Shown here: in pieces, positions 8,428-60,028 of the stretch
Layout of the letters: each line of letters opens with the position of its first letter
Numbering within the stretch: the stretch's first letter is position 1
NCBI GenBank assembly: GCA_029262235.1
Contig: JAJCZU010000004.1
Coordinates: forward strand, 124,001 to 188,000
Direction of reading: 5' to 3'
DNA: 64,000 nt
DNA from: Candidatus Eiseniibacteriota bacterium
GTDB taxonomy: Bacteria > Orphanbacterota > Orphanbacteria > Orphanbacterales > Orphanbacteraceae
Position numbers and translations under genes: made by a program
The notes under the pieces: generated by a model
Told to the model about the DNA's origin: nothing
The model's input: the letters and a program-made list of their open reading frames with translations, nothing else
Databases searched by the model: none

Positions 8428-8432
8428 CGAGT

Positions 8433-8677: not shown

Positions 8678-8703
8678 TACATTCAAGGCGTTTTGGAATC
8701 TGC

Positions 8704-8709
8704 TATAAT
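8704..8709 (+). promoter_or_regulatory. -10 box TATAAT for the subtilase gene
   Basis: A consensus hexamer directly after the repeat and 41 bases before the TTG start. Only a weak -35 (ATTCAA, 8681) is present. Confidence 0.4.
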
Positions 8710-8750
8710 CTATCGTAGTTCACTGGCGGGCATCTTTTGAGGAGTTTGAA

Positions 8751-16618: not shown

Positions 16619-16781
16619 ATCCTGTAGATCTTCTCGTAGACAACATTCTAGCTAAGGCGAAGTCACCGGGAGGCCGCATGAACGGTTCGTTTGAGTTTTC
16701 GGACACTACGCCCTCTCCCTTCGAGTTCGTTGCTGGTCTGCATCCTCCGCAGTTCCCAAATGTAGGGGCGCACCGATATGC

Positions 16782-16787
16782 TATACT
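16782..16787 (+). promoter_or_regulatory. -10 box TATACT for the beta-helix gene at 16835
   Basis: GCTATACTT lies 47 bases before the chosen ATG. This also argues against the upstream in-frame ATG at 16778, which overlaps the box. Confidence 0.4.
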
Positions 16788-16834
16788 TGAACTTTAGACT
16801 TTCGCTTCACTCTCTGAGCCAAGAGCAACTGCCT

Positions 16835-23061: not shown

Positions 23062-23612
23062 TCGCTCAGCCTCTTGCGAAGCCACGCGATGCCGAAACGC
23101 GTGTCGTACTCGATCGTGCGCGGAGAGACTTCGAGTTCCTGCGCGACTTCGTCGACCGTGAGGCCGCAGAAGTAGCGAAGCGTGACCACGTCCGCCTGCC
23201 TCTCGTACTTCGCGCGCAGTCGTTCCAGCGCCATGTAGAGAGAGAGGTGATCCGTTTCGTCGATCAGCACGACGCCGGAGCTGTCGTGCAGCGTCGTCTT
23301 GACCGCGCCGCCGCCCCGCTTCGCCGCATTGCGCTTGCGCGCATGATCGATCAGGATCCGGCGCATCGAATTGTGCGCGAGCGCGAAGAAGTGCGAGCGG
23401 CCTTCCCATCGCACGTTCGAATCGCCCACGAGCCGGATGTACGCTTCGTTGACGAGAGCCGTCGGCTGCAGCGTGTGGCCGTCTCTCTCCCCGCGCATGA
23501 GATGCCCCGCGCGCTCTTTCAGGTGCTCATAGAATCGGTTCAGCAATTCCTGTGAAGCGGCGGAGTCGCCCTTCTGGAATCGCTCGAGCAGGTCGAGGGT
23601 CGTGCCCGGCAT
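23058..23612 (-). CDS. ECF sigma factor, TIGR02999-like
   Basis: A 184-residue sigma factor; ATG at 23612 is chosen because the family starts close to LLERFQKGD and the upstream residues look unstructured. Region 2 is ALVNEAYIRL...WEGRSHFFALAHNSMRRILIDHARKR. Region 4 is RQADVVTLRYFCGLTVDEVAQELEVSPRTIEYD, a helix-turn-helix. This type is common in bacteria rich in Hanks kinases and is often encoded beside one. It directly precedes, and overlaps by 4 bases, the kinase gene. It is divergent from the FG-GAP genes starting at 23911, which are the obvious candidates for its regulon, although no promoter motif proves this. Confidence 0.93.
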   Translation of the reverse strand: MPGTTLDLLERFQKGDSAASQELLNRFYEHLKERAGHLMRGERDGHTLQPTALVNEAYIRLVGDSNVRWEGRSHFFALAHNSMRRILIDHARKRNAAKRGGGAVKTTLHDSSGVVLIDETDHLSLYMALERLRAKYERQADVVTLRYFCGLTVDEVAQELEVSPRTIEYDTRFGIAWLRKRLSE

Positions 23613-23910
23613 AGGCCCCGCTTTCTGCTGGTCTGAGACTGGAACTCCGGTTGCGCTCGCTGCAGGCGGCAACCTGGTTCGCTTCGTCGGTGCGTTGCAG
23701 CCTTCTTTCAATTTTACAGTTCGAAAAAACTTTTGCGCCTCGCGACTCATTCCCGCGCACCTCATATCAGAAGGGAGGTACGGCGATGTTACCTGAATCG
23801 AGCCCGGCCCGCGTTTGCGGGCGACCGGCGCTGCTGATATCATAACATTGCCGTATCAAATACATAATAGCGAAACAAGCTTCAGATATCTGAAGTCTGG
23901 GGAGAAGTAC

Positions 23911-43365: not shown

Positions 43366-44118
43366 ATGAGGCTATTTCTGGCAATCATGATCGGATGGTT
43401 AGTTCTGCTTTTCTTTCTCCACCCGCTTTTGGCTCAGGCTGGCGATCTCGAAGTGATCGATTCATTCGCTTCACCTCTAGACGATTGCCGTGGGCTCACA
43501 TCGGATGGAACGTTCCTCTATGTTGCCGACATTGTCGATGACCCTCCAGGTTCGCTCCGAAGACTCTCGAAGCTGGACAAGGATGGAAATGTCTTAACGG
43601 ACGTAGAAGCTAATTCATGGTGCCTGACGCATCAGGGCTCGTTCTTCTATTCCACACTCATCCACGTTCATGGCTACCAGCGATATGATCAGAATCTGGA
43701 GTACATAGACAACACTGAGTTGTCAGGTTGGAATCACAGTCCACGACGCGTGGCCTGGGATGGTCAATACCTCTGGATGACGTTTCCAGCCGCTGGAGAG
43801 AGCCTGCTTCGTAAGATCGATGTGGGCACCCAGTCGACGGTGGCGACGTTCGCGCTTCCGTTCTCGCCGATGGCGATCGCATGGGATGGCTCGAACCTCT
43901 GGATCTCTGACTTGGCAGGTAGTCAGATCCATCAAGTCTCAACGGCGGCAGTGGTTCTTCAATCGATCCCCAGCCCCGGGCCATCGCCTCAGGGACTGGC
44001 ATGGGACGGGGATGGGCTCTGGGTATGTGACGATGTTACCGACACGATTTACCTGTTGGGAGAGGCGACCGCGACAGAAAAGAGCTCGTGGAGTGGTCTC
44101 AAGTCCATGTTCAGATAG
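43366..44118 (+). CDS. Secreted beta-propeller protein with SWSGLKSMFR tail
   Basis: A 250-residue protein. GGAGGAGGG precedes the ATG; the signal peptide MIGWLVLLFFLHPLLAQA is clear. The repeats LTSDGTFLYVADI, RVAWDGQYLWMTF, AIAWDGSNLWISDL and LAWDGDGLWVCDD are blades of a small WDG propeller, here only about four to five. The end is ATATEKSSWSGLKSMFR. The blades repeat the same Asp-Gly-x-x-Leu-Trp motif used in many ligand-binding exported propellers; the ligand is not evident. It is 70 bases before the next tagged gene. Confidence 0.88.
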   Translation: MRLFLAIMIGWLVLLFFLHPLLAQAGDLEVIDSFASPLDDCRGLTSDGTFLYVADIVDDPPGSLRRLSKLDKDGNVLTDVEANSWCLTHQGSFFYSTLIHVHGYQRYDQNLEYIDNTELSGWNHSPRRVAWDGQYLWMTFPAAGESLLRKIDVGTQSTVATFALPFSPMAIAWDGSNLWISDLAGSQIHQVSTAAVVLQSIPSPGPSPQGLAWDGDGLWVCDDVTDTIYLLGEATATEKSSWSGLKSMFR

Positions 44119-44188: not shown

Positions 44189-45349
44189 ATGAGAAGCATG
44201 CTAATTACTGTGATGTCACTTACTATCGCGACCGTGCCTGTCGGCTCTGTCTCGGCCAAGACATGGTACGTGAATGCCGGAGGTACCGGAGATGCGTTGA
44301 CGATTCAGGCCGGTATTGATTCCTCGGCCGCCGGCGACACTGTCGAAGTGGCGTGCGGTACCTATTCGAATTGCGTTCATTCCACGCCCGAAGGTGAACT
44401 CAACTGCGTCATTCTGAAGTCTGGTGTCGTTTTGATCTCAGAATCGGACGATCCTGCCTGCGTGACGATAGATGCACAGAGTGCGGGAAGAGTTGTCTAC
44501 GCCGAGAGCCTCGATGCGACGACCGTCATTTCCGGTTTTACGCTCACGGGCGGCCTCACCACAGTGGGCTGGCCATATGGGCAGGGAGCCGGCTTGTTCT
44601 GTCGAGCGGATGCGAATCTCGAGATCAGAAACTGTTTGATCGAGTCGAACCATTCTACATTCGTTTCCGGTGGACTGACGGTCGGGTGGGCGTCCAGCCC
44701 CTATATCCATGACGTCACTATTCAGAACAACTCCTCGGTAGAAGGTGTCGGCGGAATCACCATCAATCACTTCTCGAGCCCCACAATCGAGGACTGCCTG
44801 ATCCAGGGGAATACCGGTGCAAATGCCGGTGGCTTGTATAGCGGATCTCAGGCTACACCTGCTGTCAGTCGTGTGGTCATTGCAGGGAACACCGGTCCTG
44901 AAGGTGGTGGCGTTGTCTGCAACCTGAGCTCCCCGACATTCAATCAATGCACTGTTGTTGAGAATATTGGTCATGGTCTTACCACTGTGAACTCGGCCGA
45001 TGTCAGCATCACTTCCTCCATCATTGCAGACAATACGGGGCTCGGCGTCTATTGCTATGCAAGTGGTCAGGCGACTCTTCAATGCTCCAACCTCTTCGGA
45101 AACGGCGATGGTGACTGGGTTGATTGCCTGGCAGGACAAGAAGGCACGAACGACAACTTCTCGTCAGACCCGCTATTTTGTAATGCCGCTGTCGGCGACT
45201 TTGCACTTAACGCAAACTCACCCTGCGCCCCTGGCAATCATCCGGACGGGGCGAGCTGCGGACTCGTCGGTGCCCTTCCTGTGGCTTGCGGTGGCTCCAC
45301 GGCGACGGAGGAAGTGAGCTGGGGCGAGGTGAAGGAGATGTTTCGGTAG
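44189..45349 (+). CDS. Secreted beta-helix protein with SWGEVKEMFR tail
   Basis: A 386-residue protein with CTAGGAGGGG before the ATG. The signal peptide ends GSVSAK, followed by TWYVNAGGTGDALTIQAGIDSS. The rungs include SNHSTFVSGGLTV, NNSSVEGVGGITI and GNTGANAGGLYSG. The C-terminal block (QCSNLFGNGDGDWVDC, ANSPCAPGNHPDGASCGLVGALPVACGG) is close to that of the protein at 7204. The final residues are STATEEVSWGEVKEMFR, and the DNA of the tail is nearly identical to that at 13764, 14097 and 60028. Confidence 0.9.
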   Translation: MRSMLITVMSLTIATVPVGSVSAKTWYVNAGGTGDALTIQAGIDSSAAGDTVEVACGTYSNCVHSTPEGELNCVILKSGVVLISESDDPACVTIDAQSAGRVVYAESLDATTVISGFTLTGGLTTVGWPYGQGAGLFCRADANLEIRNCLIESNHSTFVSGGLTVGWASSPYIHDVTIQNNSSVEGVGGITINHFSSPTIEDCLIQGNTGANAGGLYSGSQATPAVSRVVIAGNTGPEGGGVVCNLSSPTFNQCTVVENIGHGLTTVNSADVSITSSIIADNTGLGVYCYASGQATLQCSNLFGNGDGDWVDCLAGQEGTNDNFSSDPLFCNAAVGDFALNANSPCAPGNHPDGASCGLVGALPVACGGSTATEEVSWGEVKEMFR

Positions 45350-45387
45350 CCAGTGGAACAGCAGCAGGTGCAAGAAAGGACTATCCA

Positions 45388-46011
45388 ATGAAGAACGTTA
45401 CGGTAGCAATATTGCTGGCTCTCATGAGCAGCAGTGTCCAGGCTCAACTCTTTCAGGAAGGGTTCGAGTCCGGCCTGGGTGCCTGGGTTGGCAAGTCGAA
45501 TGGTTCGCATAGAGGCGTCATAGTCCCGGACCCGCATGATTCAAGCAACCACGTACTGACCTTCTCGGGGTTGATGGATAGCGGAGACATTTTCAGCACT
45601 GAGATCGCAGTCAATCCGTCGTCTACATACCTGCTTCAATTCGACTATCTGGGGTTACCGTTAGCGGGGAGTCCCGACGGAAACTACGGAGGGTATATCG
45701 GGTACTTTGATGGTGAGACCGGTGGTGGGTGGAACGGCAGATGGCTCGCAGGAACCATCAATGTTGTCGTGGACCTGATCGATGACGGCGAGTGGCACTC
45801 GTACGAGATCGAATTCATACCAGAAGACGGCGTGACAGTTACGAACGAAACCATTCGAATCATGTTGGAGGATTGGAATGGGTCAGGGTGTTCGAGCTGT
45901 CCTCCCGGCGTGCCCGGGGATGCTTTCTTTGACAACATTGTTCTTGGTGCCATTCAGACTACTGCCACGGGCAACGCTTCCTGGACTGATGTGAAGGAGC
46001 TGTTTCGCTAG
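45388..46011 (+). CDS. Secreted jelly-roll-like protein with SWTDVKELFR tail
   Basis: A 207-residue protein. AAGAAAGGA lies 7 bases before ATG 45388; signal peptide VAILLALMSSSVQA. It begins QLFQEGFESGLGAWVGKSNGS, the usual opening of a CBM-like or MAM-like sandwich, and continues YLLQFDYLGLP...GYFDGETGGGW...FIPEDGVTVTNETIRIMLED. A Cys pair lies near the end (CSSC). The end is TTATGNASWTDVKELFR, with Gly replacing Glu in the linker. Confidence 0.85.
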   Translation: MKNVTVAILLALMSSSVQAQLFQEGFESGLGAWVGKSNGSHRGVIVPDPHDSSNHVLTFSGLMDSGDIFSTEIAVNPSSTYLLQFDYLGLPLAGSPDGNYGGYIGYFDGETGGGWNGRWLAGTINVVVDLIDDGEWHSYEIEFIPEDGVTVTNETIRIMLEDWNGSGCSSCPPGVPGDAFFDNIVLGAIQTTATGNASWTDVKELFR

Positions 46012-48626: not shown

Positions 48627-49850
48627 ATGGCTTCCCCTTCGAGTCAGGAAACCCCGGAAAAGTATTTTACTGGTCAGCGCCTCCTCATTCTATTGCTTGC
48701 CGCTATTCTGATTAACTTTCTCGCTACTCGACCTCCCTATCGTGGCGTCGAGGACCGAGTCACCTTCTACCTCCTGAAAAACTTCACGGACAGGAAGGAA
48801 GATCGTGACGATTCGATTGGGATCGCAGCGATTCTACCGGAAGACTGGGAAGATCCTGCGCTGTTTGGAGGATGCGTCCCGCTTCGTCCGGTGCTCGTCA
48901 AAAATCTGTTTGAAGCAATCCTCAGCGACGGGCCATCTGTGATGTACGCAGATCTCCTCCTTGGCCCGCCAAGTCGGTTCGATGCGGAGCTTGCGGAAGA
49001 ACAGGCTGATCTGTATAGATTCCTGCTCAAAGTGAATCGCGAGCTGCAAGAAACAACGATCATTCTCGCGCTCGACTCCTCGGAGTGTGCTCCGGAGCCG
49101 ATCGGTCTCAACGGCTATGAGAGGACAGTGGCAGACACGCTTTGGGACTCTCTGCTGTTTCAATCTCCAGTTGAGGGTCGAGTGCGATTCGGGTTCGCGG
49201 AATTTACGACTGTTCTGGGCCGAGTGTTTGCGTTACCAAGAGCCATAGAAAGCACTCATGGCAAATCACGGACGATGTTGGCCGCGTTCGAAGACGTGAT
49301 CGGAAGGCAGTCGTTGGAGAGGGAGCTGTACTTTCGATTTTCGAGGAAGTACGGGGATCAGTGTTTCCCAAACTACAAGAACACGATCTCTTCGGGAGAG
49401 ATTCTTCGAGCGTGGCACGGATCCGGCCAGCTTGGGAAGTTTACGGATCGATCAACCGTACTCATAGGGGGACTCTACCCTCAGGGCAGGGACTACCATG
49501 AAACCCCGCTGGGGAGAATGGCCGGAGTGCAGATCCACGCTGAAGCGATTGCGGCCGTTCTATCGAATCGCACACTCCGGAATCTGGGGTTTTGGCTCAA
49601 CTCTCTTCTCGACTTCCTGATCGGTTGCGTGACTGGCTGGACGATGTTCATAGTGATGCGTTTCGGAAAGTCGTTCGCTTGGGGACAGGTAGGTGGTGCC
49701 GTGGCCGGCATTTCGGGAGGACTCTCCAGTGCGTTGATTCTCTTTCACCTCGGTTTCATCGCGGCGGGATTCATCTGGATGCCTTTCGCGATTCTCGCCG
49801 AGCAGTGGGTAGAGGACTTAATCTCCGATTTGAGGGGGAACCATTCATGA
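48627..49850 (+). CDS. CHASE2-domain membrane sensor
   Basis: A 407-residue protein, first of a three-gene operon. One N-terminal helix (LLILLLAAILINFLA), then an extracytoplasmic CHASE2 domain (about 35-320) with DDSIGIAAI, PLRPVLVKNLFEAILSDGPSVMYADLL and the end block FTDRSTVLIGGLYPQGRDYHETPLGRMAGVQIHAEAIAAVL. Three C-terminal helices follow, with only a short tail (VEDLISDLRGNHS), so there is no kinase or cyclase output domain. It must signal through a partner; the ATGA overlap with the next gene makes that exported caspase the best candidate. Confidence 0.9.
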   Translation: MASPSSQETPEKYFTGQRLLILLLAAILINFLATRPPYRGVEDRVTFYLLKNFTDRKEDRDDSIGIAAILPEDWEDPALFGGCVPLRPVLVKNLFEAILSDGPSVMYADLLLGPPSRFDAELAEEQADLYRFLLKVNRELQETTIILALDSSECAPEPIGLNGYERTVADTLWDSLLFQSPVEGRVRFGFAEFTTVLGRVFALPRAIESTHGKSRTMLAAFEDVIGRQSLERELYFRFSRKYGDQCFPNYKNTISSGEILRAWHGSGQLGKFTDRSTVLIGGLYPQGRDYHETPLGRMAGVQIHAEAIAAVLSNRTLRNLGFWLNSLLDFLIGCVTGWTMFIVMRFGKSFAWGQVGGAVAGISGGLSSALILFHLGFIAAGFIWMPFAILAEQWVEDLISDLRGNHS

Positions 49851-52800
49851 AACAAACAAGTAAATTCGTTCTTGCCCTGGTGCTGTCAAGTTGGCCTTGG
49901 AGTCTGGCGGCATTTGCCTCCGAATCGGTAGAGCCGTTTGAAGTTCATGTGCGATCCGGACCTGTAGGCGATATTCGCAGCGTCGAAATGAGCACGGACG
50001 GGACCTTTCTTGCGATCCAGGAAGAAGTGAATCTTCAAGCGCCTCTGCACCGAGTGAGAATATGGGATCTGCTTGCCAATCGAGAAGTGGGGGTGCTGGA
50101 CTTGCCGTTCGCGGCGTTCGTGAAGTTCCTCCCTGATAGCCACGTCCTTGTCTACAGAGACAATGATCGCGGATTCGTCTATTTTGACGCAGATGATTTT
50201 CGCGAGACCAAGACCGTGAAGGTAGATGGTGGCGGGCACTATTTATTCTCTGGTGACGGGAAGACTTGGGTCAGGATGCACGAGGGACGCGTTGATCGGT
50301 TCGATATGCTGTCAAGTACTGCAGCACAACGAAAGCTGCAGATGGACTCGTGGAGTCCTCTCGCGGTTAGTGCCGTGAATCACAATGGCTCAGCGGTCGC
50401 GATCGCGGGAACATATGATGCGTCGCAGGAAGTCATCGTGTGTCGAGAGTCGAGGAGCCCCGTCAGCCTTTCCAAAGCGGAGGATGCTCGTGTCTTTGAC
50501 CAAGCGACGCGTGGGCCGTTGGGTGTTCTCGGTGGCGTGGGCCGGCAAGAGTTGCTCTTCCACCCATCTCAGCCCTGGCTGTTGGATGTACGGCATGCTC
50601 CGCTCTATTCAGCGCGTGTGTGGGATACCGAGTCGGGTTCACTGCTAAGAGAATATGCTCGGCATCGTTCAGGCGAGGAATTCGTACAACTATTTATCTC
50701 GAGTGATGAATTCGCCCGCACACCAAACAGTGAATATGTAGCGATTACCGTTTCTTATATTGAGACGACATTCCCAGACAATTCCTATGAGCTCACACAA
50801 AAGGAACAGGTAATAGTCTGGAACACAAACGGAAACTGGATGGATCTTCGTGGAGAGCTTGAGCGGGCTGTAAAGCTTGACATACCGAGTGTCCGATCTG
50901 CGGCGGTCACGGCCGATGGACAATACGTAGCGGCGGTGTGTGGAGACCCTCGCAGAATCGAATTGTGGTCCGTGGCGAGAAAGCAAAAGATCAGGGATCT
51001 GGGGGAGCGATCTTCGCGTGTAGTACGAGTTGTTCCCAATGCCGACTTCAGTCGATTTGCTACTCAGGATGAGTCCGGCCGCTTCAGCGTCTGGGATCTC
51101 CGCAACGGCCGTCGTCGAGCAGATGATGTCTCAACGGGTGTCTTGACCCATGGATCGACGCTGGGCCGATCCTACTCGATCATTCAGGATTCACCTGCCG
51201 GAATCAGTCTCTTTGACCTCGAAAAACAGCTTTCGCCTGTCAAGATTGACTTTGATTCCTCGCCGAAGAAAAGCGCGACCTATTCCAGCGAAGCGAAGCG
51301 CAGCAGCGACGCTTTGTGGGAAAGCTTTGGACTCACGGATGTGATGGCAAAACTGACCGAATCTCAACCCGACAAGTCTCTGGATGCGTGGCTTTCAGGG
51401 GATGGTTCCAAGCTGGCGGTTCGACGAGGGCGTCCTGAGGCTCTCGAAATCTACTCGCTTCCAGACGGCGTCCTCTTGACCCGGCACGAACCCGAGCAGT
51501 TAAACTTTATTGCGGCAATGAATTCGACCGGTTCGATCTACGCCTTTTCGAACACACAGCCTACAGGAGACGATTCGAGGTCGCTGGCGTCGGTAGTGCA
51601 AGTTTATCGTCTTCATAAGGAGAAGCCTTTTGCTGTGATTTCTGTGTCGACGGAACCGGATGTGCTTGAGATCAGCCCCGATGGAGACCTCATTGCTATC
51701 GGTGATGGGGCGAACGAGAGAGTCATCGTTTACTCGACGAAGACACAGCAGCCCTTGTGGGAAGCGCGGGCTGATGTTCCATTCTCCCCTGCGGTCTTTG
51801 CTTTCATGGAGCTAAGCGCTCGTCGCGGTGATGCAGAGGCCAAGCGTATTGTCGAGGACGAGGAGATTCGCCGCCGCGTGTACGAGAATTCCTGGGGGAA
51901 CATACGCGGGATGGAGTTTGCGCCGGTATCGGGAGATCTGATGATTGGTTCGGACGATGGGAACATCCGGCGCTGGAGTCAGGAGGGTTCTCTCTTGGAA
52001 GAGTTAGAAGGGGCCTGGGGTGCGGTTTCGGGCCTGCGTGTCTCAGAGAACGGAGAGAAGACTCTTGCCTGGTACGCCGATGGTCGAGTTTGTCTCTGGG
52101 AAAGCGGTCGAGACATTCCGCTTGCTTCGTTCTATCAATACGATCGCGAAGACTTTCTTATCACGATGGAGGACCGGTACTACAAAGGGTCACGCCAGGG
52201 TCTTCGCGCGTTTAGCTTCAGTATTGACGATCAACCGGTCCCACTCCCGCTACTCGATCTGGAGCGAAATCGTCCCGAGTATATTCTCGAGCAACTGGGG
52301 TTTGCATCCTCGTTCCGGGTCCAGAACCACCGGAAGGCTGCTCAGTTGAGGCAGACATGGGTCGGAAATGCTCTGAAGCTTATGGAAGGATCGACGATTA
52401 AGATCGATCGCACAAACCTCGAGCCGCAATCCGAATTGATTCAGATCCGCCTCCCCTTCACCGCTTCCGTTCCCGCCGGCTATGAAGCACGAGTCATTGT
52501 GCGTGTAAACGGCGTTGTCGATGACGCCGCGGGATCGAATTCAACGATCATCGGAGGATCAACCTCATTTGTTGAAGTCGCGCTTACAGAAGGACTCAAT
52601 CGTATTGACCTGAGCCTTGAAACTGCAGATGCGACAGAGATTGCGCAGGACGACGTTTTGATTGACTGCCTTTCAGCCACGCCCGGCAAGACTCACATTC
52701 TCACGATCGGGGTAGCGCAATACGAACCGGAAGCATCCGACCTGAAATATCCGGGTAGTGATGCGGAGCGAATCGCAAGACTGCTCATGAGTACTCAACG

Positions 52801-53476
52801 CGATATCGGAATCGCCAAGACGATCCGAAACGCTCGAGCGAACAAGGAGGCCATAGTCGCCTGCTTGAATGAACTGGCACAATCAAAGCGCGAAGACCTT
52901 GTCGTTGTCTTCTATTCCGGTCACGGTTTCCGTGATCAGTCCGGGCAATATGTCATGGGTGCATCGGGAATCGACCGCAAGAACATTGAGTCGACCGGAA
53001 TCTCTTACACAGAACTTGATTCACTGATGAGACTGGTGCCGGCGAGAAAGAAAGTCTTGCTGCTGGACTCCTGTGAGTCTGGCGCTCGAGAAGGTGGACA
53101 GATCGCTATGGCGATTGCGGATGAAGGGTATACAGGAAGCAAGGGAGATGGTTCTCGACCGCCGCTGCGGAGCTGGGACCCTGTGGTACTGGCCGAGGAC
53201 CTATTCGTGGATCTGCTGCCGGAGTCAGGAATCAGTGTGCTTGCTGCTGGACGAAGTTCAGCACAGGAACTCGACAAGTTCGGGAGTGGCGCCTTCACCT
53301 ACTTTCTCGAGAAGGGATGCCGTGAGTATCTTGCTGATCAAAACGGAGACCGACGGATTACGGTATCGGAGCTTGCCGATTACATTGGACTGCACGTAAA
53401 GGAGGAGACGAATGGCCTGCAGGAGGTCGTTGTTAGGAAGAAGAATCCTTATGTTGATGCGGTTCTGTATCCGTAG
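49847..53476 (+). CDS. Exported WD40-like propeller fused to a caspase-like (C14) protease
   Basis: A 1209-residue protein. ATG 49847 overlaps the previous stop (ATGA) and has GAGGGGGAA upstream. A signal peptide (FVLALVLSSWPWSLAAFA) is present. Residues about 30-840 form WD40-like propellers (VRIWDLLANREVGVLD, RFSVWDLRNGR, IRRWSQEGSLLEELEGAWGAVSGLRVSENGE). A beta domain follows. The caspase domain (about 940-1209) has ILTIGVAQY, His1026 in FYSGHGF and Cys1076 in LLLDSCESG. The dyad is intact, so activity is likely. A signal peptide on such a protease is notable. Confidence 0.92.
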   Translation: MKQTSKFVLALVLSSWPWSLAAFASESVEPFEVHVRSGPVGDIRSVEMSTDGTFLAIQEEVNLQAPLHRVRIWDLLANREVGVLDLPFAAFVKFLPDSHVLVYRDNDRGFVYFDADDFRETKTVKVDGGGHYLFSGDGKTWVRMHEGRVDRFDMLSSTAAQRKLQMDSWSPLAVSAVNHNGSAVAIAGTYDASQEVIVCRESRSPVSLSKAEDARVFDQATRGPLGVLGGVGRQELLFHPSQPWLLDVRHAPLYSARVWDTESGSLLREYARHRSGEEFVQLFISSDEFARTPNSEYVAITVSYIETTFPDNSYELTQKEQVIVWNTNGNWMDLRGELERAVKLDIPSVRSAAVTADGQYVAAVCGDPRRIELWSVARKQKIRDLGERSSRVVRVVPNADFSRFATQDESGRFSVWDLRNGRRRADDVSTGVLTHGSTLGRSYSIIQDSPAGISLFDLEKQLSPVKIDFDSSPKKSATYSSEAKRSSDALWESFGLTDVMAKLTESQPDKSLDAWLSGDGSKLAVRRGRPEALEIYSLPDGVLLTRHEPEQLNFIAAMNSTGSIYAFSNTQPTGDDSRSLASVVQVYRLHKEKPFAVISVSTEPDVLEISPDGDLIAIGDGANERVIVYSTKTQQPLWEARADVPFSPAVFAFMELSARRGDAEAKRIVEDEEIRRRVYENSWGNIRGMEFAPVSGDLMIGSDDGNIRRWSQEGSLLEELEGAWGAVSGLRVSENGEKTLAWYADGRVCLWESGRDIPLASFYQYDREDFLITMEDRYYKGSRQGLRAFSFSIDDQPVPLPLLDLERNRPEYILEQLGFASSFRVQNHRKAAQLRQTWVGNALKLMEGSTIKIDRTNLEPQSELIQIRLPFTASVPAGYEARVIVRVNGVVDDAAGSNSTIIGGSTSFVEVALTEGLNRIDLSLETADATEIAQDDVLIDCLSATPGKTHILTIGVAQYEPEASDLKYPGSDAERIARLLMSTQRDIGIAKTIRNARANKEAIVACLNELAQSKREDLVVVFYSGHGFRDQSGQYVMGASGIDRKNIESTGISYTELDSLMRLVPARKKVLLLDSCESGAREGGQIAMAIADEGYTGSKGDGSRPPLRSWDPVVLAEDLFVDLLPESGISVLAAGRSSAQELDKFGSGAFTYFLEKGCREYLADQNGDRRITVSELADYIGLHVKEETNGLQEVVVRKKNPYVDAVLYP

Positions 53477-54212
53477 TGAATTCGCGTTGCTGCTTGTTGT
53501 GGCAATCTGGATGTCACTTTCTGAAAAGGTTCGGGCTGAGGATGCGATCGTGACTGCAGTAGATGGCATCGCCATGGTTCAATTGGCAGGTACCACGAAA
53601 TTTGACCGAGTGGCGGCAGTCCAATACAGCAGGTTGAGTAGCGGCGACAGTCTGTTTCTCGGCGGCGGCACTCTGGTATACGTGGACATGAGGACTCAAG
53701 AAGTAGTGCGATTGCAGAGTCCGGTTTCTCATGCCATCCCGAAAGTTCCGACAGAAAAGCGCAGTGGTCTGTTCGGACGGTTAGGATCGTTCGTCATGGA
53801 CGTTGTGAGACCCGACCCCCCGATTCAAGTGCCCGGTGCCGTAAAGGGCGGATGGTTGTTTCCGGATGGACAAGCCTATGCTGACTCTGTTCCTGTCAGA
53901 TTCAACTGGCTCTCCGATGAAACTCCCGACTACCTCGTGCTGTTTGGCAGTCATGGATTTGAAAAATTGATTGAGGAACCAGTCGCGCCTTACATCCACG
54001 AATCACGACTTGCGCCGGGAGAGTATGGCTGGGCGCTCTTGGGACGAGCTGGGACCAAGATAGAGCAGGGCAGGTTTGCGGTTCTGGACAATGATGAGGT
54101 CCGCGCTATCATCGAGGAAGGAATGGATGAAGCCCCCGAAGCTGTGCGCGCGCTTCCCAGAGAGCAAGGAGAAGTTCTTGTAGCTGGCTCGAAGTGGTTG
54201 ATAGTTAATTAG
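53412..54212 (+). CDS. FecR-domain exported protein
   Basis: A 266-residue protein. The ATG at 53412 has GGAGGAG 4 bases upstream and overlaps the caspase gene by 65 bases; ATG 53457 would give a tighter signal peptide (FALLLVVAIWMSLSEKVRA). The FecR-like domain is IVTAVDGIAMVQLAGTTKFDRVAAVQYSRLSSGDSLFLGGGTLVYVDMRTQEVVRLQSP (about 45-105). Residues 155-245 look like an Ig-like or DUF domain (VPVRFNWLSDETPDYLVLFG). FecR domains often bind regulators or peptidoglycan. It closes the CHASE2-caspase operon. Confidence 0.87.
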   Translation: MACRRSLLGRRILMLMRFCIRSEFALLLVVAIWMSLSEKVRAEDAIVTAVDGIAMVQLAGTTKFDRVAAVQYSRLSSGDSLFLGGGTLVYVDMRTQEVVRLQSPVSHAIPKVPTEKRSGLFGRLGSFVMDVVRPDPPIQVPGAVKGGWLFPDGQAYADSVPVRFNWLSDETPDYLVLFGSHGFEKLIEEPVAPYIHESRLAPGEYGWALLGRAGTKIEQGRFAVLDNDEVRAIIEEGMDEAPEAVRALPREQGEVLVAGSKWLIVN

Positions 54213-54279: not shown

Positions 54280-54475
54280 GCCCGTTCGAGTCCTACCCAG
54301 GGAGCCAGAGTGGAGAGGGTCTTGTGGTAACACAAGGCCCTCTTTTTCTGTTTTGGAGAATGCGCGGCGAAACGGGGCTCCACAGGGGAAGGGTGATGTT
54401 GTGGTCTAGCCCTCTCCCTGTGAAAATGCCGAAATGCTAGCCCATGCCACTACTGTCTCAGAGTCTCACGGGTCG
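54280..54475 (+). repeat. Composite tRNA-3'/terminator/CCTGTGG repeat
   Basis: It accounts for most of the 478-base gap 54213-54690. tRNA-like T-loop to CCA at 54280-54306; terminator at 54315-54348 (GAGGGTCTTGTG/CACAAGGCCCTC around GTAA, then TTTTTCT); CTCCACAGGGG at 54379 and CCCTGTGAAAATGCC at 54416; TGTCTCAGAGTCTCACGGG to 54472. Bases 54476-54690 contain a doubtful minus-strand frame only. Confidence 0.78.
54315..54348 (+). terminator. Rho-independent terminator after the FecR gene
   Basis: A perfect 12-base stem apart from one G-T step, a GTAA loop and a T-rich tail, 100 bases past the stop of the operon. Confidence 0.7.
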
Positions 54476-54690: not shown

Positions 54691-55704
54691 CTAGCGAAAG
54701 TGGAACGAGCATTCATCGCGGGCAACTCTCTCGAGGTTTCGCTTTGTCGCGCGCAGAAAGGTTTCCGTGCCCATTTCATCTCCACGGACAACGGTTTGGG
54801 ATTTGCGATTCCAGGCAATAACTCGAGCAATCCCATGGTGCGTCCATGAGATCGCCACGATCTTCTTTGTCGGATGAGCCTCGGCTAACGATAGGAGTTC
54901 ACGTGCCTGATTCGGCGACCCGTACATCTCATCGACGGACCTGGACACTCTAATTTCACCCTGCAACCTATGGCTTGGCTCAACAGCATCGCCCACTCTG
55001 TTCTTTTCAAGGAGCGCTTTCTTCCACTCTGCACGTTGCCTCTCTATTACTCGCTGTTCTTCTTCCTCGACTTTGGCTGCGTAGTGATTTGCCTTTTGAC
55101 TGAAGACATCGCTATCGGGAAAGAGTGAAACAAGTCGTCGGTAGAGTACCAAGTTCTCCTCGTACTCTCTTGATGGAATGGTCTTGAGTTGCGCGAGGAT
55201 TCCATCCGCTTCTTTCTTCTTAATCCCTTCCTGGATTTGGACTTCAAGTTCGCTCAGTTCAGTATCATTCGTCGCTCGGTATTCAGTTGTTATCGTCAAG
55301 GCCGCTTCATACTTGGCCCCGGCTATAGCTGTAGTTATCTCAGTAAGGATCGAGTCCCGATGCGTATTAAAGAAGTCCCTAAGGTGCTGCTCCTTCTGTA
55401 CGCGTTCACGAGTCTCGATCTCTAGTAAGGCTGCGGCCTCCTTGGAGTCTTTGCTAGCTGCAAATCCTGCCCCGCACACTAGCAGGAATAGAACGCCGAT
55501 GGCCCTGGCTAGAGGATGCAACCGCATGCCTGTTCTTGTGAACGTGAGCTGACGAACGGGTGGTAGGAATAGCGCTGAAATCCCACCAAAGCAAAGGGCT
55601 GCAAGTGGGTAGCTCGCGAACAAACCGACACCACACGCCAAGAAGACGACTCCTGGAAACCAGCTAAGCATCCTCCCCCCCTTTACTCTTCCGAGAGGTG
55701 TCAC
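54691..55704 (-). CDS. Membrane protein with long coiled-coil domain
   Basis: A 337-residue minus-strand protein. GTG 55704 follows AGGA; ATG 55671 has GGGGGG too near to it. Two membrane pairs near the N terminus (WFPGVVFLACGVGLFASYPLAALCFGG, LARAIGVLFLLVCGAGFAA). Residues about 95-245 are strongly helical and charged (IETRERVQKEQHLRDFF, KVEEEEQRVIERQRAEWKKALLEKN). The end is a small alpha/beta fold (ISWTHHGIARVIAWNRKSQTVVRGDEMGT). It shares an operon with the SH3 gene 7 bases upstream. Confidence 0.8.
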   Translation of the reverse strand: MTPLGRVKGGRMLSWFPGVVFLACGVGLFASYPLAALCFGGISALFLPPVRQLTFTRTGMRLHPLARAIGVLFLLVCGAGFAASKDSKEAAALLEIETRERVQKEQHLRDFFNTHRDSILTEITTAIAGAKYEAALTITTEYRATNDTELSELEVQIQEGIKKKEADGILAQLKTIPSREYEENLVLYRRLVSLFPDSDVFSQKANHYAAKVEEEEQRVIERQRAEWKKALLEKNRVGDAVEPSHRLQGEIRVSRSVDEMYGSPNQARELLSLAEAHPTKKIVAISWTHHGIARVIAWNRKSQTVVRGDEMGTETFLRATKRNLERVARDECSFHFR

Positions 55705-55710
55705 AGATTC

Positions 55711-56712
55711 CTAGTCCTGCCACGACGTCACAACTCCGTCGTCGAAGTACACGTACTCGTCATTATATACCCATTGCTCATGAGTTCTGAGCTGAGTGAC
55801 AGTTCTGTTCACATCATCTGGCTGACCCCAGCTCGCGATAACCATTTCCCTCGTCATTCCGAAGGTGATCTTGCCATCTCGGATGAGTGATCTAAACTTA
55901 AGCGGCGTATCTGGGTTCTCGAGAAGGAAGAGGTCCCTTCGGCCAAGGCGCACCACAGGCGAGTTAGAGATAAGCGAGTTGTGAATCCAGCCAGTAAGGC
56001 AGGAGTCCGTGAGCGTCTTGGCCGCCAGGGTGTCAAGGGAACGATAGTAGCCTGGAAGAAAGTGCACCTTGGACCAAGAAGGGCTAGATTCTGAGACAAG
56101 CAATGGATGACCCTTGCTCAGTAAACCGAGGGAGCCGGATTCGGTGCTTGCAGCCTTTCGAACTCGCGCTCGATCGCTTGAGACCCATGCCGGGTCTTGT
56201 TTGCATCCAGACCAGTACCGTTCCAATGAGTCGCTAAGGGCAATCTGCGACGCCAGCTTACCGGCCTCTATCTCCTCGCCGAGTCCTAGTTCGTCAAAGA
56301 GCCGCTCCATTTCGGTCATAGACTCGTTCATCTCGAGCTTCGACTTCGTGTAGTAGCCTTCCGAAGTCCCATCCGAAACTCGAAAATAGCCCGACTGATA
56401 GCCGAGAACGACGAGTGTAGCGCCCTTTCCGACTGATCCAATGGCCTCTCCGAAGATCGATGGCTCCGCTCTGAGGCTTCCCCCGAGACTGGCTGTGGTC
56501 TTGATGGGGCCACCCCCCAGAGAGCGAACTTCCTGAATCCTGAGTTGGACCTCAAGTTCAGAGATTCTTGCCTGCACAGCGCTCAGATTCTTCTGCAGTG
56601 ACGCCTCCACTCCTCTCAGGGAGTCCAGGTTATCGGACCGAGAGACCGAATGAGCCGTTTCGGGCGTTCCCAAGAAAAGGAGAACAAGGCAAGCCTTGAG
56701 AAGATGGGTCAA
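55711..56712 (-). CDS. Secreted SH3b and BamE/DUF2845-like protein
   Basis: A 333-residue protein. TTG 56712 has AGGAGG 9 bases upstream and starts the signal peptide (HLLKACLVLLFLGTPETAHS); the frame is open upstream but without an RBS. A short coiled coil (about 30-70), an SH3b domain (LRAEPSIFGEAIGSVGKGATLVVLGYQSGYFRVSDG), a second SH3-like region (VRKAASTESGSLGLLSKGHPLLVSE) and a C-terminal BamE/DUF2845-like domain (ITFGMTREMVIASWGQPDDVNRT..EQWVYNDEYVYFDDG) follow in order. Likely binds peptidoglycan or peptides in the periplasm. Confidence 0.85.
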   Translation of the reverse strand: MTHLLKACLVLLFLGTPETAHSVSRSDNLDSLRGVEASLQKNLSAVQARISELEVQLRIQEVRSLGGGPIKTTASLGGSLRAEPSIFGEAIGSVGKGATLVVLGYQSGYFRVSDGTSEGYYTKSKLEMNESMTEMERLFDELGLGEEIEAGKLASQIALSDSLERYWSGCKQDPAWVSSDRARVRKAASTESGSLGLLSKGHPLLVSESSPSWSKVHFLPGYYRSLDTLAAKTLTDSCLTGWIHNSLISNSPVVRLGRRDLFLLENPDTPLKFRSLIRDGKITFGMTREMVIASWGQPDDVNRTVTQLRTHEQWVYNDEYVYFDDGVVTSWQD

Positions 56713-56947
56713 GGAATCGATACCTCCTGAATAAAATTTGCGCTGGCTAGGAAAAGGTTCGCATATTCGGGCCAATTGGACAGCAGTTCCCTCCCCGAAT
56801 CGCCTCCTTGCATCAATTGAGGTACGAATGATATCATCCCTAACATTGCCGACTCAACACCGATAATACAAAGGAGAGTGCTGATGATCCTGGAGGCTAT
56901 TCCAGCCGCTTATGGCGCCATCCTGGGGACGAAAGGATGTAATAGTG

Positions 56948-57601
56948 ATGCGCAATTCTTGGTTCCGAATCGCTGCATTTATCCTGCTTAGTACGGCGCC
57001 GGCCAATCTATACGCTTGTACTCTCGTCAGTGATGACTTTGAAGATGGCAATGACGCTGGATGGACTCGGATTTGTGAGAACGGGTCTGGCGTCGACTGT
57101 CTGTTTGAAGTATCAGGGGGCACGTACAAACTTCAGCAAGTTGACGTCAATGCTCGCGTGTGGAGTATCCTGGACGCCTCCCATGGTGCTTGCGACTTCG
57201 TGTTTCAGGCGGACTTCAAATCCAACTCATACGACAAGAAAGTGATCTTCCGCGCTGACCCGGCGGGTCCCAGATACGAACTGAATCTTAGAGCAAACCC
57301 CTTCAATGATCTGTTCCTCCACAGCCCTATCGGGGATCTTGCTCACATCACCGGAATTTCCAACACCGTTGGTAGCTGGTACACGATACGAGTGCAGGTG
57401 GTGGGATCGCACATTCAGGTCTGGGTGGACGATACACTAAAGATTGACCTTCATGACACGACTCTCGTTTCCGGGGCGGTTGGAGTGCGTGCACATAAAC
57501 ATGGTGCTGTCTGCGAGTACGACAACGTTCAGTTCACGCCTCTTGGTTTGACGGCCGTTGGGGAAAGTTCGTGGAGTTACCTGAAAGAGATCTTCAGGTA
57601 G
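56948..57601 (+). CDS. Secreted ConA-like protein with SWSYLKEIFR tail
   Basis: A 217-residue protein; AAAGGA lies 8-13 bases before ATG 56948. Signal peptide FILLSTAPANLYA. It starts CTLVSDDFEDGNDAGWTRICEN, then a DUF1080/3-keto-glucoside-hydrolase-like jelly-roll (SHGACDFVFQADFKSNSYDKKVIFRAD, WYTIRVQVVGSHIQVWVDDTLKIDLHDTTLVSGAVGVRAHKHGAVCEYDNVQF). No active-site residues can be named with certainty. The end is LTAVGESSWSYLKEIFR. Only 29 bases separate it from the next tagged gene. Confidence 0.87.
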   Translation: MRNSWFRIAAFILLSTAPANLYACTLVSDDFEDGNDAGWTRICENGSGVDCLFEVSGGTYKLQQVDVNARVWSILDASHGACDFVFQADFKSNSYDKKVIFRADPAGPRYELNLRANPFNDLFLHSPIGDLAHITGISNTVGSWYTIRVQVVGSHIQVWVDDTLKIDLHDTTLVSGAVGVRAHKHGAVCEYDNVQFTPLGLTAVGESSWSYLKEIFR

Positions 57602-57630
57602 GTGCCCATCAAGGCCAGAAGGAGTCGGCA

Positions 57631-58371
57631 ATGAATACCTCACGATTTGGGACCTTAATGCCAGTTCCTCGAGCCGTTTCGATTTATGCGTTTGTCTTGG
57701 CAGTCTGTCTGTCTGATCTGGCGGTCGGCGATGCACCGGCTCAGGATTTCTACATTGACTTTGGAGTTGCCGACGCGAACCCTCCTATCTCCAGCAACCT
57801 CAATGAAGTGTTCCCCGGGTATTCTGACTACTCCCTATTGGAGGAGTCGGTCAACAACCTGGGTGATAAGGCTGGGACCGTCGAGGCAACTACTCAAGTC
57901 GTGAATGGTGTTTCCTTCACACTCAATTCCTTAGCGGGAGAGGGCACGGCCTGGCGCGACAGACCGGGTGATGTCACTCACGCTCAGGGTGATTTGCTCG
58001 AAGACCATGTAGCTGCTAACACCTCAACAGGGGGCCTGGTCCTAACGATCTCCGGGTTACCACAGAGCTCCTACTCCATGACCACATATCACCACGATGC
58101 ACAGTGGGCGAACGTAATTGAAAGCGTAAGTGTCGATGTCGGCAGTGGAGAGACAACGGTAGCCTCAAACTTCCCGGCGAGCACTGGCTGGTCTCCAACA
58201 TCAATTTCTACTGTCACATTTTCCGTTGTTGTTAGCGGTACAGAGGACGTGACAGTACGATTCATCCCACAGACCTTCTCTGTAACACTGAATGGACTTG
58301 ACTTGATCGACACCGGTACCACAGCCACGGAGGAGACGAGCTGGACCGAAGTGAAGGAGTGGTTTCGATAA
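57631..58371 (+). CDS. Secreted protein with SWTEVKEWFR tail
   Basis: A 246-residue protein with AGAAGGAG before ATG 57631. The signal peptide is IYAFVLAVCLSDLAVGDAPA. The mature chain starts QDFYIDFGVADANPPISSNLNEVF, a pattern seen in FCB secreted proteins resembling glycoside-binding or LamG-type sandwiches (AWRDRPGDVTHAQGDLLEDHV, TTYHHDAQW, FIPQTFSVTLNGLDLIDTGT). The end is TTATEETSWTEVKEWFR, with Trp in place of Met. It probably forms an operon with the gene ending at 57601. Confidence 0.83.
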   Translation: MNTSRFGTLMPVPRAVSIYAFVLAVCLSDLAVGDAPAQDFYIDFGVADANPPISSNLNEVFPGYSDYSLLEESVNNLGDKAGTVEATTQVVNGVSFTLNSLAGEGTAWRDRPGDVTHAQGDLLEDHVAANTSTGGLVLTISGLPQSSYSMTTYHHDAQWANVIESVSVDVGSGETTVASNFPASTGWSPTSISTVTFSVVVSGTEDVTVRFIPQTFSVTLNGLDLIDTGTTATEETSWTEVKEWFR

Positions 58372-58461: not shown

Positions 58462-59316
58462 ATGCTCATGTATCAGAAGCAGGGCGCAATCTTGTTTGCT
58501 CTCTTCGCACTGATTGGATGTCTACCGGATGATGCAACGAGAAACGATACTGACCCGAAGGAACAGATCAATTCAGCTATTCTGATGTATGAACATGGCC
58601 TCGGTAGCGCAAGCAAGCAGATCTTCGTCCAAACGTACTTGTCCGGTGCAGCAACTGACTCCATTCGAGCGGAAGCGCTCTATTGGTTGGGAAGGTCCGC
58701 ATTTGACGAAGGCAACTACGCGACGGCTCTTGAAGACTGGCAGACTCTGACCGAGAAGTATGACTCAAGTCCAAGAGCCTCCCAACTTCTTGAAGACATT
58801 GAGCGAATCGAGGACCTGGTGGCGCGTTCACCTCAAAGCGAACTTAACTCGGTGATTGCTCGGTCCTACCTTCAAAACGGTGATTTTTGGAATGGGTCGA
58901 GCGGTCGATTCACGATCGACTCGTCTTGGTTACCCAAGGTTGAAATGGCGACCCATTGGTACGACCGGATCGTGGAGGAATTTCCGGGGACGATCGCTGC
59001 TGAGACTGCGTATCGGCAGAAGATGTTTGCAATCCTGGGGTGGAAGGCCTTGGGTTCCTATGCTTCCAGCTACGGGCTAGAGGCTAGTCAGAAGTACTTG
59101 GAGCCACTCCTTGAGACCTTCGCCGAGTATGAGTCTGCGTTCCCAGAGAGCAACTACCTCGATGCTTTTCGGTTTCAGATTGCTCAGGCATATTGGAACA
59201 AGAGAGACTGGAATAGTGCCGAACTTTGGTTGGCCAAGATTCAAGGCGGGGACGGGGGGAAGGTGACCTTCTACACAGATCTAGCCGATGCGCGCCTTGA
59301 GAAGCTGCGGTACTAG
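58462..59316 (+). CDS. TPR-like lipoprotein
   Basis: A 284-residue lipoprotein. GAAAGGAG precedes the ATG; lipobox FALIGC. TPR-like helices follow: AEALYWLGRSAFDEGNYATALEDWQTLTEKYDSSPRA and NYLDAFRFQIAQAYWNKRDWNSAELWLAKIQ, the YbgF/BamD-like pattern of periplasmic assembly lipoproteins. The middle (about 125-220) is a longer, unusual helical region with Trp-rich motifs. It lies between two tagged genes, so an assembly role for them is an open possibility with no direct support. Confidence 0.83.
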   Translation: MLMYQKQGAILFALFALIGCLPDDATRNDTDPKEQINSAILMYEHGLGSASKQIFVQTYLSGAATDSIRAEALYWLGRSAFDEGNYATALEDWQTLTEKYDSSPRASQLLEDIERIEDLVARSPQSELNSVIARSYLQNGDFWNGSSGRFTIDSSWLPKVEMATHWYDRIVEEFPGTIAAETAYRQKMFAILGWKALGSYASSYGLEASQKYLEPLLETFAEYESAFPESNYLDAFRFQIAQAYWNKRDWNSAELWLAKIQGGDGGKVTFYTDLADARLEKLRY

Positions 59317-59386
59317 ACAAATCGGGATGCATTCGGAAGGGCATCTTGGACACTTGCAACCGTATTCAGTTACGGAAGGGTACTAC

Positions 59387-60028
59387 ATGAAACGCTTCTT
59401 CTGCGCATCGATGGGAATCTTGCTGTTCGTTCCCGCAGTTTTCGTTGATGCGGGCTTGTCGGTTGGTTTCGATCAAAACGGTGATGGAGTTCTAGAGCCG
59501 CACGAACAGGGAATTCAGAATGCGGTCGCTGGGCAAGAGTACTCGATGGATGTAGTGCTCGACTCCGTCGAGGATCTACCGGACGCAATCATAGGCACCT
59601 ATGTCATGGTCGCCACTCCCGACACGAGCAAAGTCTCAGGTGTGGAGTTCAGTTTTAATGTAGGCGCGATGCCCGACTGGATGCTCGGGCTGTACGTCGT
59701 GCCCGACAGCGCAGGTAGCTGGTTAACCCCTCAATTTATCGAATACAGATCCTCTGCGGGGAAAGCGTGGCGAGTGTCTGCGTGGGAAATCGTTCCGGTG
59801 GAGTGCGATACGGTTGACCTGACGCTAATAGGTACGCTCAAGTTCACTGCACTAGCAAACGGTTGTATCAGTTGGGGCATTGATCCGGGGTACGAGGGTC
59901 TTGGGACCGTGTTTGTTGACTGCCAGTATGAATATCCACCGTTCATGGTCCCTTTGCCCATCGATTGTAGCGTAACGACTGCAACCGAAGAAGCCTCTTG
60001 GGGCGAGGTGAAGGAGATGTTTCGGTAG
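59387..60028 (+). CDS. Secreted protein with SWGEVKEMFR tail
   Basis: A 213-residue protein. ATG 59387 has GGAAGGG upstream. The signal peptide MKRFFCASMGILLFV matches that of the gene at 13813, also in DNA, while the cores differ. The mature part has DQNGDGVLEPHEQ, an EF-hand/dockerin-like calcium loop, and then a cohesin-like sandwich (EYSMDVVLDSVEDLPDAIIGTYVMVAT..GVEFSFNVG, TVDLTLIGTLKFTALANGCISWGIDPGYEG). The chain ends VTTATEEASWGEVKEMFR. Confidence 0.88.
   Translation: MKRFFCASMGILLFVPAVFVDAGLSVGFDQNGDGVLEPHEQGIQNAVAGQEYSMDVVLDSVEDLPDAIIGTYVMVATPDTSKVSGVEFSFNVGAMPDWMLGLYVVPDSAGSWLTPQFIEYRSSAGKAWRVSAWEIVPVECDTVDLTLIGTLKFTALANGCISWGIDPGYEGLGTVFVDCQYEYPPFMVPLPIDCSVTTATEEASWGEVKEMFR

Follow-up and report, generated by a model that had tools for sequence, protein, structure and literature searches.

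Receptors of the CHASE2 type usually, though not universally, carry a cytoplasmic output domain. The occurrence of CHASE2 beside FecR-domain proteins is already known (PMC9239204, PMC5192318). Campylobacterota clusters encode a CHASE2 adenylate cyclase, an outer-membrane protein with a FecR domain, a TPR protein and a phosphodiesterase (PMC9239204). In Sinorhizobium meliloti NsrA is found with CyaD1/D2/CyaK (PMC7529298, PMC13001267). Both systems have an inner-membrane CHASE2 receptor that works with an extracytoplasmic partner, namely the FecR-domain protein in the first and outer-membrane NsrA, shown genetically, in the second. Their output is cAMP, and the accessible text describes no caspase-fold protease. 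In the BiofilmReg operon of Burkholderia, the gene of a LysM-FecR protein adjoins a CHASE2 gene (PMC5192318). In magnetotactic bacteria a CHASE2-cyclase gene follows mtxA (PMC4439547, PDB 4z29); the accessible text on this operon does not mention a C14 protease and reports no phenotype of the mtxA deletion in standard conditions (PMC4439547).

The initial annotation of the locus studied here held that prokaryotic caspase-like proteases are mostly described in the cytoplasm and that an envelope proteolytic signalling device would therefore be new. Export of a prokaryotic caspase homologue is by itself no novelty: a survey from 2012 had placed 98 of 671 prokaryotic caspase homologues (metacaspases/orthocaspases) at the membrane and 30 outside the cell (PMC3501461). 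Most of those at the membrane begin with a helix, possibly a signal peptide. A Trichodesmium metacaspase forms a fusion with CHASE2 in which the protease is predicted to be cytoplasmic (PMC3501461).

Organization of the operon

The window, that is the whole stretch of DNA that was analysed (64,000 nucleotides), contains at 48627-54212 a tight operon of a CHASE2 gene, a C14 protease gene and a small partner gene. We found all three overlapping genes where they had been annotated, on the same strand. The ATG of the protease gene (49847) and the stop codon of the CHASE2 gene share a 4-nt ATGA overlap. The third gene starts (53451 or 53457) inside the end of the protease gene, whose stop codon is 53474-53476. 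A terminator-like hairpin with a 15-pair stem and a T-rich tail closes the operon (54312-54345, + strand). The overlaps and the hairpin after the third gene support operon-linked coupling of the three genes.

The CHASE2 protein (48627-49850, + strand, 407 aa) is a predicted inner-membrane sensor or anchor. Pfam CHASE2 (PF05226, E = 6.9e-13) matched aa 62-335 (48810-49631, + strand), predicted to be extracytoplasmic, with 49.2 bits against a curated cut-off of 26.3. Hydrophobic segments were located at aa 14-32, 326-344 and about 355-391, and by hydropathy the topology fits that of CHASE2 receptors, with one N-terminal transmembrane segment, an extracytoplasmic domain and about three C-terminal transmembrane segments. 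As only about 15 residues follow the last hydrophobic segment, the protein is without an output domain, and no cyclase, kinase or other domain was found in the translation by Pfam. The original reading of a sensor lacking an output domain is therefore retained.

The exported C14 protein

The second gene (49847-53476, + strand) encodes a predicted exported WD40-propeller, Ig-like and Peptidase_C14 protein of 1209 aa. It starts at ATG 49847 and not at TTG 49592 of the mechanical ORF. The sequence pattern and the hydrophobic N-termini of homologues predict a Sec signal peptide, MKQTSKFVLALVLSSWPWSLAAFA (49847-49918, + strand), cleaved at AFA/SE. A beta-propeller region was recognised by Pfam propeller models and PDB WD40 repeat matches at about aa 30-765 (49934-52141, + strand); together with Foldseek and a model of low to moderate confidence, these matches indicate that the protein probably carries at least two propellers. 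It is followed by an Ig-like beta domain at about aa 850-941 (52394-52669, + strand), seen as an AF2 strand pattern in a well-scored region. The protease domain (caspase p20-like, aa 951-1085, 52697-53101, + strand, Pfam E = 4.1e-10) scored 40.2 bits, above the cut-off of 21.4, and NCBIfam caspase_w_EACC1 matched at 6.8e-22, yet under its own cut-off.

The catalytic residues are His1026 (codon 52922-52924, + strand, SGHG motif) and Cys1076 (codon 53072-53074, + strand, DSCESG motif). Both were invariant across an alignment of 20 proteins, in agreement with the intact pair initially annotated. The dyad was also found by motif in 11 of 13 CHASE2-linked C14 genes; in the other two the motif search did not find the Cys motif. 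Caspase-fold proteins often need processing or calcium for activity. The full-length model (pLDDT 63.6) had loosely modelled propellers and its Foldseek matches were mostly propellers, and therefore it gives no information on the active site.

Signal peptides and topology of all parts were judged by hydropathy only. By this measure the N-terminus was hydrophobic in 49 of 61 complete relatives with a C-terminal C14 domain, and operon-linked homologues had clear signal peptides, which was the test that the initial annotation had set for export.

The small partner protein

The third gene (53457-54212, + strand) encodes a small, predicted exported protein of 251 aa from ATG 53457 (53451 is also possible). 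It has an N-terminal FecR-like, retention-module-like beta domain (53538-53741, + strand, AF2 strands 30-93) and an Ig/FN3-like domain (53868-54083, + strand, AF2 strands 139-209, Foldseek FN3 modules). It had been annotated as a FecR-domain protein. We could not uphold this assignment, as Pfam FecR (PF04773) gave no match for the window protein even at E = 0.1 and matched 0 of 27 members of the partner-family alignment, window protein included. NCBIfam was also negative for FecR in the window partner. Direct profile comparison with Pfam FecR was rejected as well (hhalign, 1%), and one Pfam-FecR protein of another genome matched the partner profile at just 0.0018-0.005. A FecR-type anti-sigma regulator, which would adjoin an ECF sigma factor, was discarded because a signal peptide stands in place of the cytoplasmic anti-sigma domain, and no sigma gene of any kind was recognised among the neighbour genes scanned.

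Partner-family profiles built without the window matched the window protein at 4.6e-5 and 1.3e-5. The family profile also found the solved protein MtxA (E = 1e-4), a match that dropped to E = 1.4 once the TPR part was removed. MtxA is a signal-peptide protein with a beta region, an Ig-like domain and TPR. The window protein shares all but a detectable TPR: it has a predicted signal peptide, a beta domain and an Ig-like domain beside a CHASE2 gene, and the domain search gave no match to the C-terminal TPR that is present in some relatives. By Foldseek its beta domain resembled 5ix9, a solved retention module, although the E value was only 0.037 (TM(target) 0.74, 66 columns), and six partner proteins weakly matched the LapA retention-module family (best 9.2e-5). 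Whole-chain Foldseek of the partner model gave FN3/Ig matches, none at E < 0.001, and the viral structure library gave nothing useful. The third protein is a FecR-like beta domain joined to an Ig-like domain, MtxA-like, and not a Pfam FecR protein.

Conservation of the trio across genomes

We analysed 80 loci chosen by the protease alone. CHASE2 was present within 5 kb in six of them (L020, L029, L030, L070, L096, L097), compared with 0.11 expected (Poisson P = 2.4e-9). A partner profile from which the window and these six loci had been left out matched at E < 0.001 only L030, L097, L070 and L020 in this set, each time adjoining CHASE2 and C14; L030 belongs to the cultivable Winogradskyella thalassocola. 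L096 has C14 and a CHASE2-cyclase, but its small neighbour failed the partner profile and we left it out as a trio; L192 (C14 and a truncated CHASE2) was also left out as evidence.

A profile of output-less CHASE2 matched in 31 of 295 Bacteroidia genomes, about 10%. In the 25 neighbourhoods that were read, a FecR-like gene adjoined CHASE2 in 20, and C14 or CHAT was near in six (L202, L210, L211, L212, L213, L215), with 0.22 expected if mean genome size is assumed (P = 1.4e-7). The nearest C14 genes in L210 are on the strand opposite to CHASE2, and we counted them as near, not as an operon. No protease lay near the CHASE2-partner pair in 19 of the 25, therefore the protease is optional or encoded elsewhere. 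Among loci chosen by the partner, CHASE2 was adjacent in L272, L273, L277, L280 and L283, separated from the partner by a protease gene in L291, and one gene away in L287.

The protease slot was occupied by C14, by TPR-CHAT (L213, L199, L200, L212, L215, L274) and once by clostripain C11 (L291, between partner and CHASE2, 1.3e-16). These are three caspase-fold families, most members being predicted exported, and their distribution supports a protease exchangeable within the caspase fold. Gene order was shuffled among loci and adjacency was kept. Conservation of the trio, whose absence elsewhere the initial annotation had named as a refutation, was found across phyla in several gene orders; these comparisons support the view that CHASE2, the FecR-like/MtxA-like protein and a caspase-fold protein with predicted export stay together in more than one phylum.

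Six relatives from the same phylum were searched for CHASE2, C14 and FecR; none had the trio, and other CHASE2/C14 genes were present. None of the six showed the downstream flank of the operon, which precluded the reading of an empty site. Plasmid records gave no match for the CHASE2 protein or the third protein, and C14-only matches in 30 records.

Discussion

Hydropathy supports the prediction that all three products act outside the inner membrane, where the initial annotation had suggested that they could meet. We consider it likely that they act as one extracytoplasmic sensor-protease unit. CHASE2 would be anchored in the inner membrane and sense on the periplasmic side; as it lacks an output in the cytoplasm, it would hold or gate the C14 protease, which is predicted to be exported. 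In the periplasm the FecR-like/Ig-like protein may dock on CHASE2 as an adaptor or carry the signal to it, and the propellers could choose substrates. A signal would then release or activate the protease, which would cut envelope proteins, possibly its own partners too. The output would thus be proteolysis outside the inner membrane, as opposed to the cytoplasmic cyclase or kinase of other CHASE2 receptors. For this direction, from CHASE2 to protease, we would put the chances a little short of even.

The operon differs from the cAMP systems in its CHASE2 without an output domain and its predicted exported C14 protease, and from BiofilmReg, which joins CHASE2 to a histidine kinase, has a response regulator and lacks a protease. 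Its protease shares with prokaryotic caspase homologues the C14 domain, the His/Cys pair and the common N-terminal helices or signal peptides. In the Trichodesmium fusion the protease is part of the CHASE2 protein, whereas here it is separate and predicted exported, carries propellers and has a FecR-like partner. LapD-LapG-LapA works in a way similar to the proposed unit, with a receptor in the inner membrane that governs a cysteine protease of the periplasm. The protease fold is another one, LapG being transglutaminase-like; the receptor also differs, and the operon has no adhesin.

The opposite direction, in which the protease acts upstream and turns the signal on by cutting the CHASE2 ectodomain or its FecR-like partner, seems distinctly less probable. 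Some inner-membrane protein, a CHASE2 cyclase or a different one, would then give the response and would here be encoded elsewhere in the genome, on the model of regulated proteolysis of FecR-type anti-sigma factors or of LapG on LapA. C14 does accompany cyclase-bearing CHASE2 (with C14/CHAT/C11 neighbours in L070, L096 and L097), therefore the protease is not a simple replacement of the cytoplasmic output. The weak retention-module matches and the 5ix9-like domain point the same way, as LapG, a cysteine protease of the periplasm, cuts retention modules. However, the single CHASE2 match of the source genome is the output-less one, therefore there is no CHASE2 cyclase to take the signal, and no cleavage site was identified.

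It is still less likely that C14, CHAT and C11 are exported scaffolds or binding proteins in a CHASE2-FecR-like complex, with proteolysis incidental. The big propeller or TPR parts, the three families filling one slot and the two proteins in which the Cys motif was not found would suit such a role, but scaffold selection alone would not keep His and Cys invariant in 20 proteins and the motif in 11 of 13. We regard as improbable a module for cell death, intoxication or defence in the envelope, a role that has been suggested for bacterial caspases of the cytoplasm. One weak PADLOC 'caspase' match (2.5e-8) was the sole defence match, and caspase homologues with CHASE2 occur in conflict-system architectures (PMC8195603); the protease is, however, predicted to be exported and not cytoplasmic, its partners are FecR-like/MtxA-like sensors, the operon has no immunity or antitoxin-like gene, and a mobile-element context was not seen. 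Chance adjacency of three unrelated genes would suit the negative search for the trio in six members of its phylum, but is extremely unlikely given the enrichment beyond chance in three independently selected locus sets.

In a search of largely open-access papers we found none with CHASE2, caspase and FecR together; as far as open papers show, the link of exported caspase-fold proteases to CHASE2/FecR-like sensors is new. The recurring trio points to a putative envelope device that signals by proteolysis. We tentatively propose, at not quite even chances, that such systems are widespread, in each case combining a CHASE2 receptor and a periplasmic protein of the FecR-like/MtxA-like type with an exported protease of the caspase fold (C14, CHAT and C11 being interchangeable), and that signal-controlled extracytoplasmic proteolysis, unrelated to cell death, is a second main role of the caspase relatives in bacteria.

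In summary, many bacterial caspase homologues have export signals, and this operon suggests both definite partners for them, in the form of a CHASE2 receptor plus a small FecR-like protein, and a candidate function, signal-controlled envelope proteolysis. It links scattered cases, namely MtxA of magnetotactic bacteria, the CHASE2-FecR clusters of Campylobacterota and NsrA of Sinorhizobium, and it offers a purpose for output-less CHASE2 receptors.

Organization of the operon

Three overlapping genes had been described at 48627-54212 in the initial annotation, and we found them on one strand, each overlapping the next. The CHASE2 gene (48627-49850) encodes 407 residues (Pfam, 6.9e-13). Its stop and the protease start at 49847 share an ATGA overlap, and the protease stop lies within the third gene, which starts at 53451 or 53457. 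A terminator-like hairpin lies 100 bases downstream of the third gene. Hydropathy indicated one hydrophobic segment at the N-terminus of the CHASE2 protein and about three towards its C-terminus. Because only some 15 residues follow the last of them, the protein has no cyclase, kinase or other output domain, as had been proposed.

The N-terminus of the protease (1209 residues) resembles a signal peptide; behind it come a long propeller region and an Ig-like domain, and the chain ends with the Peptidase_C14 domain (4.1e-10). The catalytic pair His1026/Cys1076, reported before as intact, did not vary among 20 aligned proteins, and its codons were verified in the DNA.

Conservation of the trio

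The trio is conserved: three independent selections of loci in other genomes, by protease, by CHASE2 and by the third-gene product (the partner), agreed. Among 80 loci for which the C14 protein was the sole query, CHASE2 lay no more than 5 kb from the protease in 6, compared with 0.11 expected from CHASE2 density (P = 2.4e-9, a rough Poisson value that ignores shared ancestry). An independent partner profile matched four of those six below E=0.001 and no other of the 80 loci. These were L030 (Winogradskyella), L020 (a Chitinophagales MAG), L070 (a deltaproteobacterial MAG) and L097, a contig that looks planctomycete-like despite being binned as Bacteroidales. L029 (Bacteroides sp. 214) had the same layout, and its small protein was recognized only if included in the profile.

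The output-less CHASE2 profile matched 31 of 295 Bacteroidia genomes. In 25 Bacteroidia neighbourhoods read, the partner gene adjoined CHASE2 in 20, and C14 or CHAT was near CHASE2 in 6, against 0.22 expected from gene densities for which a mean genome size of 3.6 Mb was assumed (P = 1.4e-7, equally rough). The partner search covered 386 sampled genomes across many families; in 5 of its top 20 loci CHASE2 was next to the partner. One gene separates the two in L287, and in L291 they are parted only by a protease.

A search for a conserved CHASE2-C14-FecR order had been suggested; adjacency was maintained across the trio loci but gene order varied. We observed CHASE2-C14-partner in the window, CHASE2-partner-C14 in L030 and L029, C14-CHASE2-partner in L070 and L097, and C14-CHASE2-partner-C14 in L211. 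Components of a single machine commonly show permuted order with adjacency kept.

Two other arrangements were seen. In the Bacteroidia loci L221-L227, except L225, CHASE2 and a FecR-like gene form a pair in a conserved neighbourhood with no protease nearby; a gene of ~262 aa and a mutS-like gene of ~856 aa lie just downstream. The pair probably belongs to the core genome and was inherited vertically. In L198 (9654-13196) the gene for a CHASE2 protein (613 aa) precedes that of a 1180-aa protein which matches Pfam FecR (1.7e-8) and contains many TPRs; the C-terminal end of this second protein resembles an outer-membrane barrel strand.

The third protein

The third gene encodes a small protein with a predicted signal peptide. 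It had been called a FecR-domain protein, a name which did not hold: it had no Pfam match at E<0.1, and Pfam FecR matched 0 of 27 proteins (the third protein and 26 relatives). Members of the family carry a signal peptide, an N-terminal beta domain and an Ig-like domain, and many end in TPRs. A partner profile built without the window protein found it at 4.6e-5, and at 1.3e-5 when the protease-selected loci were also left out. The family profile matched MtxA (PDB entry 4z29) at 1e-4 over nearly the full length of the entry. The match fell to 1.4 when the TPR part was removed, therefore architecture and gene neighbourhood count for as much as sequence in the MtxA link. A Pfam-positive FecR protein of another genome matched the profile weakly (0.0018-0.005).

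Two beta domains are visible in the AF2 model (pLDDT 70.6). The second is similar to FN3/Ig modules and the first to the cell-surface anchoring (retention) domain 5ix9, with a target TM of 0.74, though E was 0.037. Weak NCBIfam LapA-retention matches in six partner relatives agree with the latter likeness. We refer to the protein as FecR-like/MtxA-like.

Proteases at the same position

C14 occupied the protease position in the window and in L020, L029, L030, L070, L097, L202 and L211, and TPR-CHAT proteins (Pfam, 1e-48 to 1e-74) in L213, L199, L200, L212, L215 and L274; no CHASE2 was recognized beside the TPR-CHAT gene of L274. In L291 a clostripain-family C11 protein (7770-10919, 1.3e-16), predicted to be exported, lies between the FecR-like partner and CHASE2 genes and is, by its domain match, a third caspase-fold family at this position. 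C14, CHAT and C11 share a caspase-type fold (clan CD), and most of these proteins start with a signal-peptide-like segment. CHASE2 was joined to a cyclase domain in L070, L096 and L097 and lacked one in the window and most Bacteroidia read; therefore what stays constant in the system is its extracytoplasmic part.

Other genes of the genome

A striking C-terminal tag, [ST]W-x-x-[VLF]-K-x-[LMI]-F-R-stop, is shared by many exported proteins. The DNA pattern for W-x-x-[VLIF]-K-x-[LMI]-F-R-stop matched this genome 78 times and each of six relatives 20-47 times, and the reversed pattern gave 0 matches. The tag probably serves the whole phylum as a sorting or anchoring signal. In the window the tag closes the genes at 5248-6324, 7204-8427, 16778-18610, 43366-44118, 44189-45349, 45286-46011, 56912-57601, 57571-58371 and 59288-60028; one copy has W before F. 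The trio proteins are without it. Behind the operon, a convergent pair on the minus strand (54691-56775), encoding an unknown membrane protein and a bacterial-SH3 protein, matched none of the six relatives of the phylum at the DNA level. Reading by eye also showed two genes for TPR-tailed Ser/Thr protein kinases (20515-23843 and 36110-38797), one of them with an ECF-type sigma gene next to it.

A possible sensor-protease unit

Our best reading is that the trio may work as a sensor-protease unit in the periplasm: CHASE2 would anchor and gate the exported protease, and the FecR-like protein would serve as adaptor or signal carrier. Co-conservation, gene overlap and intact catalytic residues are supported by comparison, and export, topology, complex formation, direction of control and substrates are inferred. 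The main alternative is that the protease acts upstream of the signal and clips the partner or CHASE2. Proteases adjoining cyclase-bearing CHASE2 favour it, but a genome search gave no CHASE2 match besides the output-less one of the trio, which argues against it in this genome.

CHASE2 adjoining FecR-domain or MtxA proteins is already documented (PMC9239204, PMC5192318, PMC4439547), and the outer-membrane protein NsrA signals only with CHASE2 cyclases (PMC7529298, PMC13001267). Export had been thought to set the protease apart, but exported caspase homologues are on record from a survey, which also lists a CHASE2-metacaspase fusion with the protease part predicted to be intracellular (PMC3501461). 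Among the open papers searched, none combines CHASE2, caspase and FecR. Against those papers, what is new is the recurrent tie of predicted exported caspase-fold proteases to CHASE2/FecR-like sensors, and also the exchange of C14, CHAT and C11 in this setting.
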